Below, piece after piece: positions 55,006-61,950 of a stretch of DNA of 64,000 bases (positions are counted from its first letter, which is position 1; each line of letters begins with the position of its first letter). The stretch comes from a virus, in the IMG/VR virus record IMGVR_UViG_3300021141_000007, positions 1 through 64,000 of that record; one strand, given 5' to 3'. The position numbers were made by a program, and so were the translations under genes. Below the pieces are notes generated by a model that saw only the letters and a list, made by a program, of their open reading frames with translations, did no database searches and was not told the origin of the DNA.

Positions 55006-56925
55006 ATGAGAACACTTAAACTATTGATTATAAGCTTATTAGCTTGTATAAACATTTATGGACAAACAGGCCCCGCAGCTCCTTCTACTGGTATATGGGC
55101 ATTAATTGACACCGCTTATAATGTAGGAACAACTACACAAGGATTTACAAAAGCAAGAGTTACATTAAAAAATACCACCACTACAAAAGTAACAGGTGTG
55201 CAATTCAGAGTTTTTTATGACAAAGTTGCTTTTAAAAACTCAGGGGTTAGCTTAGTGGGAAGTACAACCAATCTTGATTTACAATATGTAACGGATTCTG
55301 TAAATGGATTTTCAACTATAACATTAATTTATACAGGTAATAGTAGTGCTTATTCCCTTGCTAATGGAGAAACTTTTGAGCTTACTCTTACACACGCTGC
55401 TCCATCTATTTTTAATAATTTAACTTTTATAGACTCTTTGAAATTTTCAGGAGTATCTACCTTTCCTCAATATGCTTCTACACAAGCAGGTATGGATACT
55501 ACTTTAGGACTATACAGTTATAATGGAGAATTCAAAAGACCAAAACTTAACTTCAAAGGTACCTTCGCAAATGTGAATGGAACTGGAGCTAAAAATTTAA
55601 CTTTATCTTTAGAGAAAAAACCTAAGTCAGGGTCAACTTGGGCTCAAGTAAATTCTTATAAAACTAATATTGCAGGTAAGTTTTCATTCTCAGAAACATT
55701 GGATACTACTTTCTGGGATGTAAGATTAGCAGTTAAAGGGGATACAATGGGTGTAGGTAATGTAGTTTCTACAACAGACGCTCAATTGATTAACCAATGG
55801 GTATTGGGTGTGGGTACCCCAAAAGATTTTGATTTCTATGCTGCGGATGTAAATGGCAATTCTAATATTACAGTGGCGGATGCTTTTGGAGTATTTGGAA
55901 GAGTAGCAGGAAGAATAACAAGTTGGTCTAATAATGTAAAAGATATTAAATTCTTTACAGCAGCAGAATATGCTACAATTACAGGAACACCTACAACAAA
56001 CTATACATCAACTATTTCAGGTGTAACTAATTTTTACTTTGATATATTGCCAGGGCAACCTGACTCGGTTACATATTATGTAGTGGTTCCAGGAGATGCT
56101 AACTCTACAGGATACAATATGGCTAGAACAACTCCAATGGAAATCCTTATAAATGGTCCACAAGATTTAGACCCTCAAACTCACAGAGTTATTGATACAA
56201 AAGTGGAATATGATTTCCCTACTAATAATATTGAGTTAACTGTCCCTAAATTAAATGTAAATGAAGGAAATATGGTTAATATCCCTGTAAGTTTAAAATC
56301 TGACAGCATCAATGTATTGGCTTTGCAATTTGGGTTGAAATATGATAGCACACTTCTTAATTTTAAAGGAATCTACTCTAGTGCTAATACACAAAAATGG
56401 TTCACTTATGTAAATCCTAGTGAAGGAGAAATTTCTTGGGGAGGATATGATCCAAGTAACAATACTAATCCTTTAAAAAATGGAGATGAAATTATTACAT
56501 TTCAGTTTTTAGCATTAAAACCTCAAGCTGATTGGGGAGTTAGTCCTCTTTACACTTCAAGTAAATTTGCAGGAAACGTACAATCAAAAGATTTATCTCT
56601 ATCTCCTAGTAATAATATTATACAAGTGAGAAAAATGTCTCCCACTAATATTGGAAGAATTATAGATGCTAACACTATGGAAGTTTATCCAAATCCTACA
56701 ACGGGAATTATAGATATTGTTTTTAATGTAGAAGAAAGCACAAATGCCACATTATCAGTTTATGATATATTGGGTAGCTTACGCATTACAGTATTATCAG
56801 AACCTGTAGCAAAAGGACAATACACTTATAGAGCGGATTTAGGTACACTATCTGCGGGAATTTATACAGCAAAATTGCTATTAGATAACAAAAGTGTGCT
56901 AGTTTCAAAAATTATTAAACAATAA
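55006..56925 (+). CDS. Secreted cohesin/dockerin-like protein with T9SS type A sorting domain
   Basis: 639 residues. Sec signal peptide at 1-20 (LKLLIISLLACINIYGQ). Residues ~30-165 are a cohesin-like beta sandwich; ~178-245 a second beta domain (KGTFANVNGTGAKNLTL); ~250-302 dockerin-like, with the calcium loop DVNGNSNITVADAFG; ~408-505 another cohesin-like domain (VNIPVSLKSDSINVLALQFG). Residues 557-639 are a T9SS C-terminal domain: MEVYPNPTTGIIDI, SVYDILGS and AGIYTAKLLLDNK. In known T9SS cargo that domain directs passage across the outer membrane and attachment to the cell surface. It leads the surface-protein island. Export by the host T9SS is inferred. Confidence 0.85.
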   Translation: MRTLKLLIISLLACINIYGQTGPAAPSTGIWALIDTAYNVGTTTQGFTKARVTLKNTTTTKVTGVQFRVFYDKVAFKNSGVSLVGSTTNLDLQYVTDSVNGFSTITLIYTGNSSAYSLANGETFELTLTHAAPSIFNNLTFIDSLKFSGVSTFPQYASTQAGMDTTLGLYSYNGEFKRPKLNFKGTFANVNGTGAKNLTLSLEKKPKSGSTWAQVNSYKTNIAGKFSFSETLDTTFWDVRLAVKGDTMGVGNVVSTTDAQLINQWVLGVGTPKDFDFYAADVNGNSNITVADAFGVFGRVAGRITSWSNNVKDIKFFTAAEYATITGTPTTNYTSTISGVTNFYFDILPGQPDSVTYYVVVPGDANSTGYNMARTTPMEILINGPQDLDPQTHRVIDTKVEYDFPTNNIELTVPKLNVNEGNMVNIPVSLKSDSINVLALQFGLKYDSTLLNFKGIYSSANTQKWFTYVNPSEGEISWGGYDPSNNTNPLKNGDEIITFQFLALKPQADWGVSPLYTSSKFAGNVQSKDLSLSPSNNIIQVRKMSPTNIGRIIDANTMEVYPNPTTGIIDIVFNVEESTNATLSVYDILGSLRITVLSEPVAKGQYTYRADLGTLSAGIYTAKLLLDNKSVLVSKIIKQ

Positions 56926-56936
56926 AAATAAATATT

Positions 56937-57236
56937 ATGTCAGAAGAAATTCAAAACGATGGTTCTATGGATAGTTTGAAAAAAACTATTATCGGAGCAA
57001 TAGGTACATTAGTTACAGCAGCAGGTGTGTGGGCTTCTACACATTTGTTTGGAGGAGAAACTGAGCACAAAGAAGAAGTTAAAACTGAAGCGTCTGCTCC
57101 TGTGGCACCAATCGTAGTTAATATTGAGAATACTAACCAACAAAAACAAAGTGCAGCTCCTACTACAATCATTAGAGAAAAAGTTGTAGAAAAACCTGCT
57201 AAAAAAGAGAAATCTGAAGATGAAAGTCCTTGGTAG
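56937..57236 (+). CDS. Membrane-anchored Pro/Lys-rich protein
   Basis: 99 residues. A short acidic N-terminus precedes a hydrophobic segment (KTIIGAIGTLVTAAGVWAST) and a long, polar, Ala/Pro/Lys/Glu-rich tail with APVAPIVVNIENTNQQKQ and EKPAKKEKSEDES. The topology resembles a small periplasm-spanning linker. Its end overlaps the CsgG-like gene by 17 bases, indicating translational coupling. Confidence 0.55.
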   Translation: MSEEIQNDGSMDSLKKTIIGAIGTLVTAAGVWASTHLFGGETEHKEEVKTEASAPVAPIVVNIENTNQQKQSAAPTTIIREKVVEKPAKKEKSEDESPW

Positions 57237-57924
57237 TCTATTATTTTTACCTTTATTTACATTCTCCCAAATAGGCTCTATTAAAACAGAGTCCTACACT
57301 GCCGATTTTGAAAAGAAACAAAGTTTAGCAGTGGTATCTGACTATGATGATACCTTACAGGTTCCAATTTCTATTTTAAAAATAGGGTTTAATGAAGAAT
57401 TATATGAGGCCTATCCCGAACTTAAAGAAAAGAAAGTGGGGCTTGGGGTCACTAATATTGTAACAGAATACTTCTTGTCTACTAATAGATTTGTAATAAC
57501 GGAAGATAAGTCTGATATTAAAAATAAAATGGTGGCTCAGGATAAAGCATCAAGAAAAGGAATATCTTCTAATAAGATAGAAGTGTTTGGCCATGTTATA
57601 TTAGCTCAATACTTTGTGTATTGTGAAATTTACGATTTTTCAGTGTCAGAAGATGAAGTGGTAAAAATAAGTGGAAAAGCAGAAGTTACCCAAACTACAA
57701 GACTAGGGTTGCAATGTAAATTTGTAGATGCAACAACAGGGGAAATTATAGTGGGGTCTGGACTAGGAGAAGCTAACACTGTTAAAAAATCTTCTATTCT
57801 CTCTGATATTGATGATATTAAGTTTAATCAATCTACAATAGGAATCACCACCAAGAAATCTCTTGAAACTGCTGCATCCAGAGTTATAACGAGATTAATT
57901 AAAAAAGGTGTTTTTAAGAAATAA
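57220..57924 (+). CDS. CsgG-like outer-membrane secretion protein
   Basis: 234 residues. Signal peptide KVLGSLLFLPLFTFS, without the lipobox Cys of classic CsgG. The body follows the CsgG order: VGLGVTNIVTEYFLSTNRF (the helix and strand before the 'R(F/Y)xV.E' motif), VFGHVILAQYFVYCEIY (strand with G.I), VTQTTRLGLQCKFVDATTGE (the 'VxxRLVDxxTGE' strand) and a C-terminal helix TKKSLETAASRVITRLI. CsgG forms a nonameric outer-membrane pore for curli subunits. The family call rests on motif order. Curli subunits CsgA/B are not visible, so the substrate is unknown; its neighbours at 57908-61486 are candidates. Confidence 0.65.
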   Translation: MKVLGSLLFLPLFTFSQIGSIKTESYTADFEKKQSLAVVSDYDDTLQVPISILKIGFNEELYEAYPELKEKKVGLGVTNIVTEYFLSTNRFVITEDKSDIKNKMVAQDKASRKGISSNKIEVFGHVILAQYFVYCEIYDFSVSEDEVVKISGKAEVTQTTRLGLQCKFVDATTGEIIVGSGLGEANTVKKSSILSDIDDIKFNQSTIGITTKKSLETAASRVITRLIKKGVFKK

Positions 57925-59257
57925 ACTAATTAGCTTACTAATATCCTTTTATGTAAACACCTTTGTTTACAGTCAAACTTATTCCTACAAATATACTGAC
58001 CCTTGTACACAAGTAGCTAAAACTATTAGTGTCCCTCTTAATGGAAGTACAAAAGTTTCCTATTATGGAAACACAGAAAATTTCACATACTATGATTTTG
58101 TTTCAGGTGCGTTTCAAACATGGTCAGATAATTTATTCAATAAGTTTAAAAACAGTTCACCTTGTGGAGAAGCTATTGGTACTCCCACAGTTATGAATAT
58201 TGGGCAGGGACAAGTGCTGAACACTGTAGGAATAATAAACTCCATATCAAATATTGCAGAAACTATTGGATCTGCTACTACGGGAATGACAGAAAGTTTA
58301 GTTTCTTCTACAACTCCTAGTTCAATAGGAGAGGGTCCTTCTGTATCATCTGAATCAGGGGTATCTGTAGGGGGGAGCACTTCCGTTGAAGGAACAGGGG
58401 GTAGTTCTGTAAGTAGTGGAGAAAGTGGGGGAACAAGCAGCGGGGGTTCTACACCTAGCGGGGGAGGGTCTTCTACTCCTAGTGGAGGAGGTTCTTCATC
58501 TGAGGGGGCATCAGGCGGTAGCACAAACATCTCCGCAGGAGGTACCAACTCTGTGAGAGGCGTAGGATCTTCTGGTGGTGGAGGAGGAAAGGCTAATAAA
58601 CCTGGAAGTAAAGAAGGGGGAAAACCAGCGATTGTGGCTTCCTCAGATTTTGTAGGATTTAGTTTTAAGGATTCAGAAACCCCTTTAGGAATTAAAGGAA
58701 CAGGGGGTTATACATCCATGAGATGGGATGGCACTTGTTCATCAGGAATATTATTTGATTATACATCAGCACAGGCTGGACCAAATATAACGGGGTTTTA
58801 TGCTTGGATAAATCCTTCCAATATAACAATAGCTTCGGGCACTGTAACATTCTCTTTAGAGGGAGGAGGTAGTGCCTATTCCACAGTTGCTTTTGGGCAG
58901 ATGAAAACATTTAAAAAGATTAAGAAGTTAAAACTTATCTATTTAGGAACATTATCTATGGGGAAAGTGTTTAAAGAAGGGTTTATAGGTACAGCTATTA
59001 TAACAGGAGGAATGTATGATTTAAAATTACATAAAAGACTGGATGTTAAACTGACTAATCTAATTGTGTATTCTCCTTATGTTAGTTATTATAATGATGT
59101 ACTTATGAAATCTCCTTTTGTAATGCTTCCTAGTGTGGGAGTAAATGTAGGAGTGACAAAAAGATTTAAAGTAAACATAAATATTGGAGGGGCTTGGCAA
59201 GTAGGGCAAAGTGCATTAAATAACACTATAACTTTTGGTACAAGATTATTATTATGA
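57908..59257 (+). CDS. Outer-membrane protein with Gly/Ser-rich linker
   Basis: 449 residues. The start is GTG, overlapping the CsgG-like gene by 17 bases (no in-frame ATG fits a signal peptide), giving FLRNKLISLLISFYVNTFVYSQ as a signal peptide. Residues ~25-90 are a small beta domain with two cysteines; ~125-245 an extreme Ser/Gly linker (SSGGSTPSGGGSSTPSGGGS). The C-terminal ~200 residues look like an outer-membrane beta barrel (GVNVGVTKRFKVNINIGG, ending FGTRLLL). Passenger-linker-barrel order suggests a surface-display protein, though a classical autotransporter barrel is not evident. Confidence 0.6.
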   Translation: MFLRNKLISLLISFYVNTFVYSQTYSYKYTDPCTQVAKTISVPLNGSTKVSYYGNTENFTYYDFVSGAFQTWSDNLFNKFKNSSPCGEAIGTPTVMNIGQGQVLNTVGIINSISNIAETIGSATTGMTESLVSSTTPSSIGEGPSVSSESGVSVGGSTSVEGTGGSSVSSGESGGTSSGGSTPSGGGSSTPSGGGSSSEGASGGSTNISAGGTNSVRGVGSSGGGGGKANKPGSKEGGKPAIVASSDFVGFSFKDSETPLGIKGTGGYTSMRWDGTCSSGILFDYTSAQAGPNITGFYAWINPSNITIASGTVTFSLEGGGSAYSTVAFGQMKTFKKIKKLKLIYLGTLSMGKVFKEGFIGTAIITGGMYDLKLHKRLDVKLTNLIVYSPYVSYYNDVLMKSPFVMLPSVGVNVGVTKRFKVNINIGGAWQVGQSALNNTITFGTRLLL

Positions 59258-60243
59258 GAATTATAATTATATTACTTTTTACTTTTAATATAGCTATAGG
59301 ACAAAATTTTACCTATTCAGGGTTTATTTATAATGCTAATGGTACAGGAGCAGTTAATGTTCCGATAAAATTATATAAAAGAACCACTCCGACATTAACA
59401 GGGTTTACATCTCAGCAAAACTATAACGGACATTCTTATTACAGATCTACAGGAAATGCCTTTTGGACAGATGCAAGACAAGCTTGTGCAAATATGGGAG
59501 GATATTTAGTAACAGTGACAAGTGCTGCAGAAAATAACTTTCTATTTAACTTATGGCCTTCAGGGTGGATAGGATTAACAGATGAGGTTACTGAAGGTAT
59601 ATGGAGATGGGTTACAGGTGAACCATACTCATATTCTTCTTGGAATCCTGGAGAACCAAACAATGCAGGAAATGAAGACTATATTCAATTTGTTGGAGGG
59701 GGTAAATGGAATGATTTACCTAATGGTGTAGCTCTCCCTTATGTAATTGAATTTGATTACATTGTAACTTTTACTGCTTGGGTGTTACATAAAACAATAT
59801 ACACAGATGCAACAGGTAGATATACTATAAATGAAACAAGTAATCCAGCGACAGAATGGTATATTCAAATAGATGCCCCCACTCCTGTAACAACTTTAGC
59901 TTTAACAGATATGCAAAACGTTTCTAATATAATATTAGGAAGAACTGCTAGAAGAAGTTTACATTGGAATATGTATGATGTAAATGGAGATGGTAGAATA
60001 ACTATATCTGACCAATACTATATTAATTTAAGAAGAACAGGAAGCGTCAGTAATTGGGTTACAATGGCGGCATCTAGGTTATTTAACACAACACAATATA
60101 ATTCTTTAAATACAGGAACAACAGATTTAAGAACAACTATTCCTGGAGTGTCTTCTATTACAATTAATTCTCCTGTCTCAGGGACTACAAATGCAAACTA
60201 TTATTTAATAGCCCCAGGTTATAGAGGGCAAATAACTTATTAA
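59254..60243 (+). CDS. Secreted C-type-lectin protein with dockerin-like module
   Basis: 329 residues. Signal peptide RIIIILLFTFNIAIGQ. Residues ~57-167 are a C-type lectin domain: FWTDARQACANMGG, WIGLTDEVTEGIWRW, GEPNNAGNEDYIQF and WNDLP, keeping the EPN and WND calcium/sugar-binding strings but almost none of the disulfide cysteines. Residues 238-262 hold a dockerin-like calcium loop, DVNGDGRITISDQ. The segments on either side (YSGFIYNANGTGAVNV before the lectin; TDATGRYTINE after it) match residues ~183-240 of the 639-residue protein, so the lectin is inserted into a copy of that module. Starts four bases before the previous stop. Confidence 0.75.
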   Translation: MRIIIILLFTFNIAIGQNFTYSGFIYNANGTGAVNVPIKLYKRTTPTLTGFTSQQNYNGHSYYRSTGNAFWTDARQACANMGGYLVTVTSAAENNFLFNLWPSGWIGLTDEVTEGIWRWVTGEPYSYSSWNPGEPNNAGNEDYIQFVGGGKWNDLPNGVALPYVIEFDYIVTFTAWVLHKTIYTDATGRYTINETSNPATEWYIQIDAPTPVTTLALTDMQNVSNIILGRTARRSLHWNMYDVNGDGRITISDQYYINLRRTGSVSNWVTMAASRLFNTTQYNSLNTGTTDLRTTIPGVSSITINSPVSGTTNANYYLIAPGYRGQITY

Positions 60244-60245
60244 TT

Positions 60246-61043
60246 ATGAAAAAATTATTATCTTTATTATTATTTCCAATATTTTTATATTCACAAACCC
60301 CTCCTTCTCCAGTTGTTCAATCATCTTCAGCACAAGAAGATTTTGGACGTACTCATAATAATATTATAGGAGCACAATCTCGTTCATTCGGAGGAGGATC
60401 TATAATTAAACCAAACCCAATGTTAACTTCAGCGGCTTTTGCAATGATACAAAATCCTACCTATGAAGGCGGTTGGAGGTATGGTACTGGCTTAGGGTTC
60501 AGTAAAATAAATTTTGGAAAAGGATTTGGGGTAAATGCAGTGCTTACATTTGATTTATCTCAACAATCCTATTCTATTTATTATAAAAACAGAAATTGGT
60601 ATTATCATCTTAATTTTGGCAGAATGGGCATAGCTTTAAATAGAGGAGCTAGTGTAACTAAAACTTGGGATTTTAAAAAAATTACTTTTGGGGCACAATT
60701 GGGGACATCTATAATATCAAATGGTCCTTCAGATACATCAAATAAAAGTGCTTATTATGCAGCAATACCTTATATAGTATTAATGGCAGATAGAGAATTT
60801 AAAATAAGTAATAGACTAGAGTGGAAACCAGAAGCTTTCATAACTTTATGTTCCCCTTACTATGATTTAGGAAAAGATTTTTTTAGCACATCAAGTACAT
60901 TTAATGTAGTGGCAGGAAATAATGTGGCCTTTAAAATAGGTAAACATTTTAAAATCAATTTAAATTGGAGAGCTAATATAAATACCACACCTCAATTTGC
61001 AATAATGAATAACATATTATTTGGTTCAAACCTTAAATTTTAA
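60246..61043 (+). CDS. Outer-membrane beta-barrel protein
   Basis: 265 residues. Signal peptide KKLLSLLLFPIFLYSQ. After a short linker come alternating amphipathic strands (GFGVNAVLTFDLSQQSYSI, HFKINLNWRANINT) ending in a C-terminal Phe (FGSNLKF), the outer-membrane assembly signal. There are no cysteine pairs except one in the middle. It is probably an eight-to-twelve-strand barrel. It lies directly after the lectin gene and may form the anchor or pore partner of the exported proteins. Confidence 0.65.
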   Translation: MKKLLSLLLFPIFLYSQTPPSPVVQSSSAQEDFGRTHNNIIGAQSRSFGGGSIIKPNPMLTSAAFAMIQNPTYEGGWRYGTGLGFSKINFGKGFGVNAVLTFDLSQQSYSIYYKNRNWYYHLNFGRMGIALNRGASVTKTWDFKKITFGAQLGTSIISNGPSDTSNKSAYYAAIPYIVLMADREFKISNRLEWKPEAFITLCSPYYDLGKDFFSTSSTFNVVAGNNVAFKIGKHFKINLNWRANINTTPQFAIMNNILFGSNLKF

Positions 61044-61045
61044 TT

Positions 61046-61486
61046 ATGAAAAATATTATACTACTTTTAGTAATTCCTTTCTTTTCCTTTGGACAATGTG
61101 TTAAAATTGAAGAGATTAAGTCATCTGTCGAGATAAAAGAGTTAGGGGGTCGGGATGTAAAATTCGGAGTTAAACAAATGGCCGAGGATATGTTCTCTTC
61201 TAAGTTTTGTCTATCTGATAGTGGAGAAAAGATCTTTATAGATATTTTTTACTTCGGACTTCCTAAAAAAAGTTTAAGAATTATGGGAATAGAAGAATCT
61301 GTTCAAACGACAGAAATTGGCATCCAAGTGAAATATAAAGGAAAGAAATATGAAGAATATGGAGAGTCAGAGTCTGAGATTCATGCAGTTATGTTAGAAC
61401 TTACAGATGGAATTCCTTTTTCTAAAATGACTGTCTCAACTTCTATAAAAAAAGCTCTAGAAAAAATTATAAAAAAGATGCCTTAA
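61046..61486 (+). CDS. Small exported protein of the surface island
   Basis: 146 residues with a signal peptide (KNIILLLVIPFFSFGQ). The mature part is alpha/beta: VKFGVKQMAEDMFSSKF, TTEIGIQVKYKGKKYEEYG and a C-terminal amphipathic helix MTVSTSIKKALEKIIKKM. That order (helix, strand, strand, final helix) recalls the second half of CsgG-like proteins, but the match is weak. Likely periplasmic; it could be an accessory to the CsgG-like pore. Confidence 0.52.
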   Translation: MKNIILLLVIPFFSFGQCVKIEEIKSSVEIKELGGRDVKFGVKQMAEDMFSSKFCLSDSGEKIFIDIFYFGLPKKSLRIMGIEESVQTTEIGIQVKYKGKKYEEYGESESEIHAVMLELTDGIPFSKMTVSTSIKKALEKIIKKMP

Positions 61487-61500
61487 TAAAAAAATTGTTG

Positions 61501-61508
61501 TATTTTTG
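61501..61508 (+). promoter_or_regulatory. Promoter -7 element before the HExxH gene
   Basis: TATTTTTG, matching TAnnTTTG, lies 5 bases before the chosen ATG, which would make a nearly leaderless mRNA. No -33 TTG is present. Confidence 0.35.
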
Positions 61509-61512
61509 CAAC

Positions 61513-61950
61513 ATGAAATTATTTATTTTCCTATTACTTTTTACTACATCTTCTTTTGGTCAAATAAAAATTGCTGATGTTGGGCCTAATTGGAAAAACA
61601 GAGTGGATTCTGCCTTAATCTTAATTAAGAAATACGATTCCCATAAATACAATCTTTTATTAAAGCACTGTAAAAACATTGGATTTTCAAATCTAAAATT
61701 CTCCTCCATAGAGGGTGATAACACTATTATACTTTCCACTTATGATGTAAGCGGAGGTAGCTTAAATAATATAGCATCAGCTATTGTTCACGAATCAGCA
61801 CATTTATTTTTCTACAACTCTAATTTCTTTTCTACTGCATCCGAAGAAGAGAGAATTTGTTATAGATATGAGTTGGATTTTTTGCTTAAAATCCCTAATT
61901 GTGAAAAGTATTTAATCAACAATGCTTATAAAAATATATTTACCAATTAA
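61513..61950 (+). CDS. Exported HExxH putative metalloprotease
   Basis: 145 residues from the ATG at 61513 (MKLFIFLLLFTTSSFGQ); the frame opens at a TTG six codons earlier, next to the promoter-like TATTTTTG, so ATG is preferred. After the signal peptide comes SAIVHESAHLFFYNS with the HExxH zinc motif at ~89-93, and a glutamate-rich helix (ASEEERICYRYE) that could hold the third ligand. It is a compact zincin-like domain, presumably periplasmic or secreted. It may process the island's exported proteins or cleave host surface proteins. Confidence 0.6.
   Translation: MKLFIFLLLFTTSSFGQIKIADVGPNWKNRVDSALILIKKYDSHKYNLLLKHCKNIGFSNLKFSSIEGDNTIILSTYDVSGGSLNNIASAIVHESAHLFFYNSNFFSTASEEERICYRYELDFLLKIPNCEKYLINNAYKNIFTN

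Follow-up and report, generated by a model that had tools for sequence, protein, structure and literature searches.

How a phage gene comes to carry a lectin inside a module that a neighbouring gene also encodes, and what its product is for, are the questions raised by a locus in a 64,000-nucleotide stretch of viral DNA (positions 1 to 64,000 of the 66.7-kb IMG/VR record IMGVR_UViG_3300021141_000007; hereafter, the window), which is a fragment of an Immutovirus-like phage. Two proteins are concerned, one of 329 residues (59254..60243), which we call the cargo protein, and one of 639 residues (55006..56925), its partner; both proteins, their parts and the conserved genes around them lie on the plus strand. 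An earlier note on this DNA had proposed that a C-type lectin was inserted into a copied dockerin module, cleanly and inside a single gene cluster.

The cargo protein, defined by its open reading frame, a Lectin_C match, a weak Dockerin_1 match and its AlphaFold model, consists of a leader, a beta-sandwich with the lectin in a slot, a dockerin-like part and a tail. Its hydrophobic, leader-like N-terminus (residues 1-16; 59254..59301), modelled as a helix at residues 2-13, is probably a Sec signal peptide, judging from the sequence. Strands 1 and 2 of the beta-sandwich form the N-flank (residues 17-44; 59302..59385), followed by the slot with its lectin (residues 45-176; 59386..59781) and by strands 3 to 5 (residues 177-207; 59782..59874), which were delimited by hhalign and the AlphaFold model. 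Next come the dockerin-like helices (residues 217-261; 59902..60036), with one canonical calcium-binding loop, DVNGDGRITISD, and a C-terminal tail (residues 262-329; 60037..60240) that BLASTP, hhalign and the model all find to be common to both proteins. No T9SS sorting domain is present in the cargo protein, despite its leader-like N-terminus. A PHROGs search returned nothing matching this protein, its partner or most of the proteins encoded around them.

The lectin is identified by Pfam (PF00059, residues 71-164, E 1.5e-15; 58.3 bits, the cut-off being 22.6), and the best PDB matches of its model are C-type carbohydrate-recognition domains, with DC-SIGN as the first of them. Across 48 homologues, the residues of the canonical calcium and sugar site (E134 P135 N136, E141, and W152 N153 D154) are invariant, which supports the suggestion that this would be a sugar-binding version of the module; C78 is the single invariant cysteine, and the two conserved disulfides of animal C-type lectins are not found. 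As for the helices after the slot, Dockerin_1 (PF00404) reaches 19.2 bits, under its cut-off of 22.9, and in the same homologues the second calcium loop is canonical (D242, N244, D246 and D253 are invariant) and the first is degenerate. Because of its score under the Pfam cut-off and its degenerate first calcium loop, we name this part dockerin-like rather than a type I dockerin.

The partner is built from a cohesin-like domain, a module with an empty slot, a cohesin and a T9SS sorting domain. The first (about residues 21-171; 55066..55518) is recognised by the strands of the AlphaFold model and by weak Cohesin matches that relatives have in the corresponding region. The module (residues 180-360; 55543..56085) is placed by BLASTP, hhalign and the model, in which the empty slot is a short turn between strands 2 and 3 (residues 207-212; 55624..55641), and its Dockerin_1 match is, as in the cargo protein, below threshold. 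The cohesin (residues 409-509; 56230..56532) passes PF00963 with 39 bits against 24.1, and cohesins account for many of the best PDB matches of the partner model, with TM-scores of up to 0.79 by target length. The protein ends in a T9SS type A C-terminal sorting domain (residues 560-637; 56683..56916), found with both PF18962 (44.8 bits against 27) and TIGR04183 (41.6 against 23). In one relative (L116:4309-6228), a single in-frame stop after the module breaks the partner gene, which could reflect readthrough, a real split or a sequencing error.

That the lectin flanks are a diverged copy of partner residues ~179-370 is confirmed. BLASTP aligns the two proteins in two separate pieces, residues 174-322 with 210-363 (E 3e-9) and residues 21-43 with 183-205 (E 0.008), just as the earlier note had described, even though the homology does not stop near residue 302, as stated there, but reaches about 370. 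With profiles built on family alignments of 48 rows for the cargo protein and 47 rows for the partner, hhalign places the N-flank alone on partner residues 179-211 (E 1.2e-5), the C-flank alone on 204-370 (E 2.8e-30), and the cargo protein without its insert on 179-370 (E 5.3e-35, 187 columns). The lectin alone has no match to the partner profile, and an HMM of the C-flank recovers the partner gene in relatives at E values of about 1e-17 to 1e-31. A likeness by chance could be argued from the pairwise identity of only ~23% between flanks and partner, and from how widespread dockerin motifs are; however, the profile comparison over 187 columns, the independent match of the N-flank in register, and the same order of structural elements in both models rule it out, leaving it a negligible probability.

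The AlphaFold2 models have pLDDT values mostly of 82-97 in the cargo-protein scaffold (residues 17-44 and ~176-329), ~52-68 in the lectin, and mostly 81-96 in the partner module. Compared by the order and length of their elements rather than by rmsd superposition, scaffold and partner module contain 12 secondary-structure elements in identical order, which supports the relatedness of the flanks. In the cargo protein these are strands (E) and helices (H) E17-27, E37-44, the slot, E177-183, E189-196 and E200-207, and then H217-227, H235-241, H251-261, E275-278, H279-287, E301-305 and E316-319; in the partner they are E180-189, E199-206, the turn, E213-219, E225-231 and E237-244, and then H256-267, H276-280, H290-301, E315-318, H319-327, E342-347 and E356-360. 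The lectin stands where the partner has a turn of ~6 residues, which joins the second and third strands of a small beta-sandwich; that the insert would lie in a beta-domain loop had been anticipated. This sandwich has weak SdrD_B/CarboxypepD_reg similarity in relatives, and the domain hosting the insert is a transthyretin/SdrD_B-like beta-sandwich, not a dockerin. The two genes do share a module, but its dockerin-like part comes after the slot and does not enclose it.

The idea of a single, local insertion event is not supported by the comparison with relatives, which were found on roughly 200 IMG/VR contigs of up to 373 kb (scans taking the best 80 matches each) and, among the isolates of the phage collection, only in the Flavobacterium phages vB_FspM_immuto. 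The phage family keeps two paralogues of the module, each with its beta-sandwich, dockerin-like helices and tail. The slot is empty in the paralogue tagged with cohesin and T9SS domains, and the other paralogue is loaded wherever its slot could be read; this loaded copy is old and widespread throughout the family. Together, these contigs and immuto contain at least four classes of cargo in the same slot, assigned by motif and length, with a Pfam check on representatives and on all 20 members of the nested class: a C-type lectin (129-130 aa), a PA14 domain (186 aa), an unclassified domain (~218 aa) without a convincing Pfam match or a PDB match, and a C-type lectin with a nested LamG domain (353-357 aa). 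Members of the nested class all carry Laminin_G_3 and Lectin_C (20/20), the LamG domain preceding the lectin's EPN motif. A search with more distant flanks found no fifth class among the best 80 loci, and rarer classes may exist beyond the best 80 matches per scan. On a 316-kb phage contig, a LamG-like domain encloses a PA14 domain in a protein that lacks the module (L177:7530-8834), showing that domain-in-domain insertion recurs elsewhere.

Tree counts indicate that the content of the slot has changed many times. On a C-flank tree of 108 rows, from which the motif rule left out ~10 proteins with the unclassified cargo, the cargo type needs 18 changes, and the well-supported branches alone force changes in every class (C-type lectin, 13; nested class, 8; PA14, 6; unclassified domain, 3). 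The partner gene is free of cargo and was used for further trees, which include those ~10 proteins. They require 27 changes (83 rows) and 23 changes (68 rows), and the flank tree of the same 68 rows requires 15; these three trees come from a quick search, with some rows long-branched, and many of the contigs are metagenomic fragments, near-copies among them. On the 68-row partner tree, the C-type lectin label takes 21 changes against a shuffled mean of 22.9, and 135 of 500 shuffles were as low, so that its clustering barely exceeds that of random labels. The counts on flank and partner trees imply that the cargo travels partly with its own C-flank and nearly independently of the partner.

Recent exchanges can be seen directly, since close phage relatives can differ at the cassette by the cargo stretch alone; three collinear pairs show near-clean swaps. 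L014, with a C-type lectin, and L194, with the unclassified cargo, are 90% identical over 4.7 kb that finish where strand 2 does, then have an unalike stretch, and resume some 25 codons past the slot for 5.6 kb at 83%. L029 and L066 have 9.3 kb in common at 86%, followed by a difference of ~0.7 kb, the LamG insert, after which the alignment resumes; between L050 and L150, a C-type lectin is exchanged for PA14, and identity of 89.5% resumes at a similar place. From these alignments, the exchanged unit comprises the cargo and can extend over the later half of the beta-sandwich. Phages swap their cargo by replacing the slot region in frame, and a second-level insertion has placed LamG inside the lectin. 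A DGR as the driver of lectin diversity was rejected, with RVT_1 in 0/12 relatives, in a search confined to these relatives.

Both paralogues belong to a cassette that is conserved, with rearrangements, in long loci; besides the partner and the cargo protein, it encodes proteins of 99 aa, 234 aa, ~400-600 aa and 146 aa. The conserved neighbours in the window are a 99-aa protein with a probable membrane segment (56937..57236), a 234-aa exported protein (57220..57924), a 449-aa exported protein with a Ser/Gly-rich linker (57908..59257), whose C-terminal part looks like a beta-barrel from its sequence, and a 146-aa exported protein (61046..61486). For the 234-aa protein, an identity as a CsgG-like curli exporter was dropped, as PF03783 gave no match in the record at E values up to 10; the profile of this protein has no match in the PDB either. 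The window also encodes, between the cargo gene and the 146-aa gene, a 265-aa exported, barrel-like protein (60246-61043), matched in only 12 loci, compared with 170 or more for the other cassette genes. Another exported protein, of 151 aa (61495-61950), lies near many cassettes; its HESAH (HExxH-like) motif and weak SprT-like similarity make it possibly a secreted metallopeptidase.

Twelve phages searched whole have one T9SS sorting domain and two modules each, and their cohesin matches are confined to the partner gene or its split halves. A further phage has two cargo proteins in tandem (L052:9185-11458), of which one bears the unclassified domain and the other a C-type lectin. In immuto, where genes 13-15 and their neighbours form the same cassette in another order, the lectin protein is encoded by gene 13, and the 639-aa protein is divided over genes 14-15 at the boundary between module and cohesin, with a separate leader on each half. 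The annotation of this record, which calls the gene 13 product a lectin C-type domain protein and that of gene 15 a cohesin domain protein, is silent on the shared module and the slot. A scan of a genome collection for a bacterial source of the module gave one match, a MAG contig labelled Sphingomonadaceae (L141, RFPL01000028.1), with the gene of a 634-aa partner and, from a second copy, the beginning of the module. Because of this partner, the contig is probably misbinned phage sequence, and the bacterial source was discarded.

From this architecture and swapping we infer a docking, a location and a function. Both proteins would leave the cytoplasm by Sec during infection; the partner would reach the outer surface of the host through the host T9SS and stay there, its cohesin holding the cargo protein by the dockerin-like part. 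The infected cell would thereby display a glycan binder chosen by the phage, which might mask or recognise surface glycans (superinfection exclusion) or adhere infected cells to other cells or particles, with the cargo being swapped as target glycans change. We judge the chances of this general explanation, a swapped cargo module and a partner-docked glycan binder on the infected cell, to be evenly balanced. In its full form, it would be a viral cellulosome-like display on Flavobacterium-like hosts, where a T9SS-anchored cohesin scaffold docks a protein with swappable glycan binders in its beta-hairpin slot; the cargo would be almost independent of the partner gene and diversify as whole domains are inserted, even one within another. 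This we consider possible, somewhat short of even.

The conserved cassette and the single T9SS-tagged, cohesin-bearing partner in the 12 phages speak for such a display, and the split immuto partner, with a leader on each half, is what one would expect of a dockerin-like part and a cohesin with affinity for one another. Docking has against it that the dockerin-like part lies under the Pfam cut-off, with one of two calcium loops canonical, and that the dockerin-like part of the partner could itself occupy the partner cohesin; and the display, that the cargo protein has no T9SS tag to explain how it crosses the outer membrane. The missing tag and the degenerate dockerin-like part, together with further exported proteins without an assigned role in the cassette, would also fit an independent export through another cassette protein, of a lectin either soluble or separately anchored (aggregation, decoy) and not docked on the partner, with the shared module meaning only common ancestry. 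We hold this somewhat unlikely, given that cargo protein and cohesin partner co-occur in the cassette and that the immuto partner is split between module and cohesin. Alternatively, the cargo protein might decorate the virion as a structural adhesin, and swapping would tune how it binds receptors or particles, the way tail-fibre modules do. Phage adhesins are indeed known to contain C-type lectin folds and swapped modules, and the cargoes are of glycan-binding types, but the leader-like N-termini and the T9SS-tagged partner argue otherwise. The immuto cassette, moreover, adjoins replication and nucleotide-metabolism genes, with those for baseplate, tail fibre and spike lying far away at 82-101 kb, which also counts in favour of the display, and virion decoration appears unlikely. 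Taken together, the T9SS and cohesin counts, the leaders, the split immuto partner and the invariant lectin ligands favour the docked display over these rivals.

Phages are known to swap host-recognition modules. In the Cryophage case, phage-encoded T9SS cargo proteins vary between phage variants, one of them with a PA14 domain (PMC7468147); there, the tagged genes themselves vary, whereas in the present phages it is an untagged paralogue that holds the variable domain, in a defined slot, and the tagged partner is stable. As in cellulosomes, a cohesin that passes Pfam and matches cohesin structures is encoded near a dockerin-like protein; contrary to cellulosomal systems, this one is viral, its dockerin-like part is below the cut-off with one canonical calcium loop, and the cargo sits inside the module instead of being appended to it. 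Phage C-type-lectin DGR proteins (PMC6199706) share the fold and the potential to diversify binding properties, but diversity here is whole-domain exchange, and no reverse transcriptase was found in 12 relatives. The shared module, its slot, cargo set and nesting, and the cassette are undescribed in the literature searched, which left many subscription papers outside. Immuto differs from the window in its partner split in two genes and in its gene order.

The module offers an insertion site that has been used again and again in nature within a small fold, with an empty paralogue as a control and four cargo classes, nesting included, which makes the slot well suited to studying how domain insertions come about and remain tolerated. 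Should the inferred docking be right, these phages would use the type IX secretion system of the host itself to remodel its surface with glycan binders that can be swapped, and the purpose of phage-made surface proteins would become directly testable in a cultured phage-host pair.
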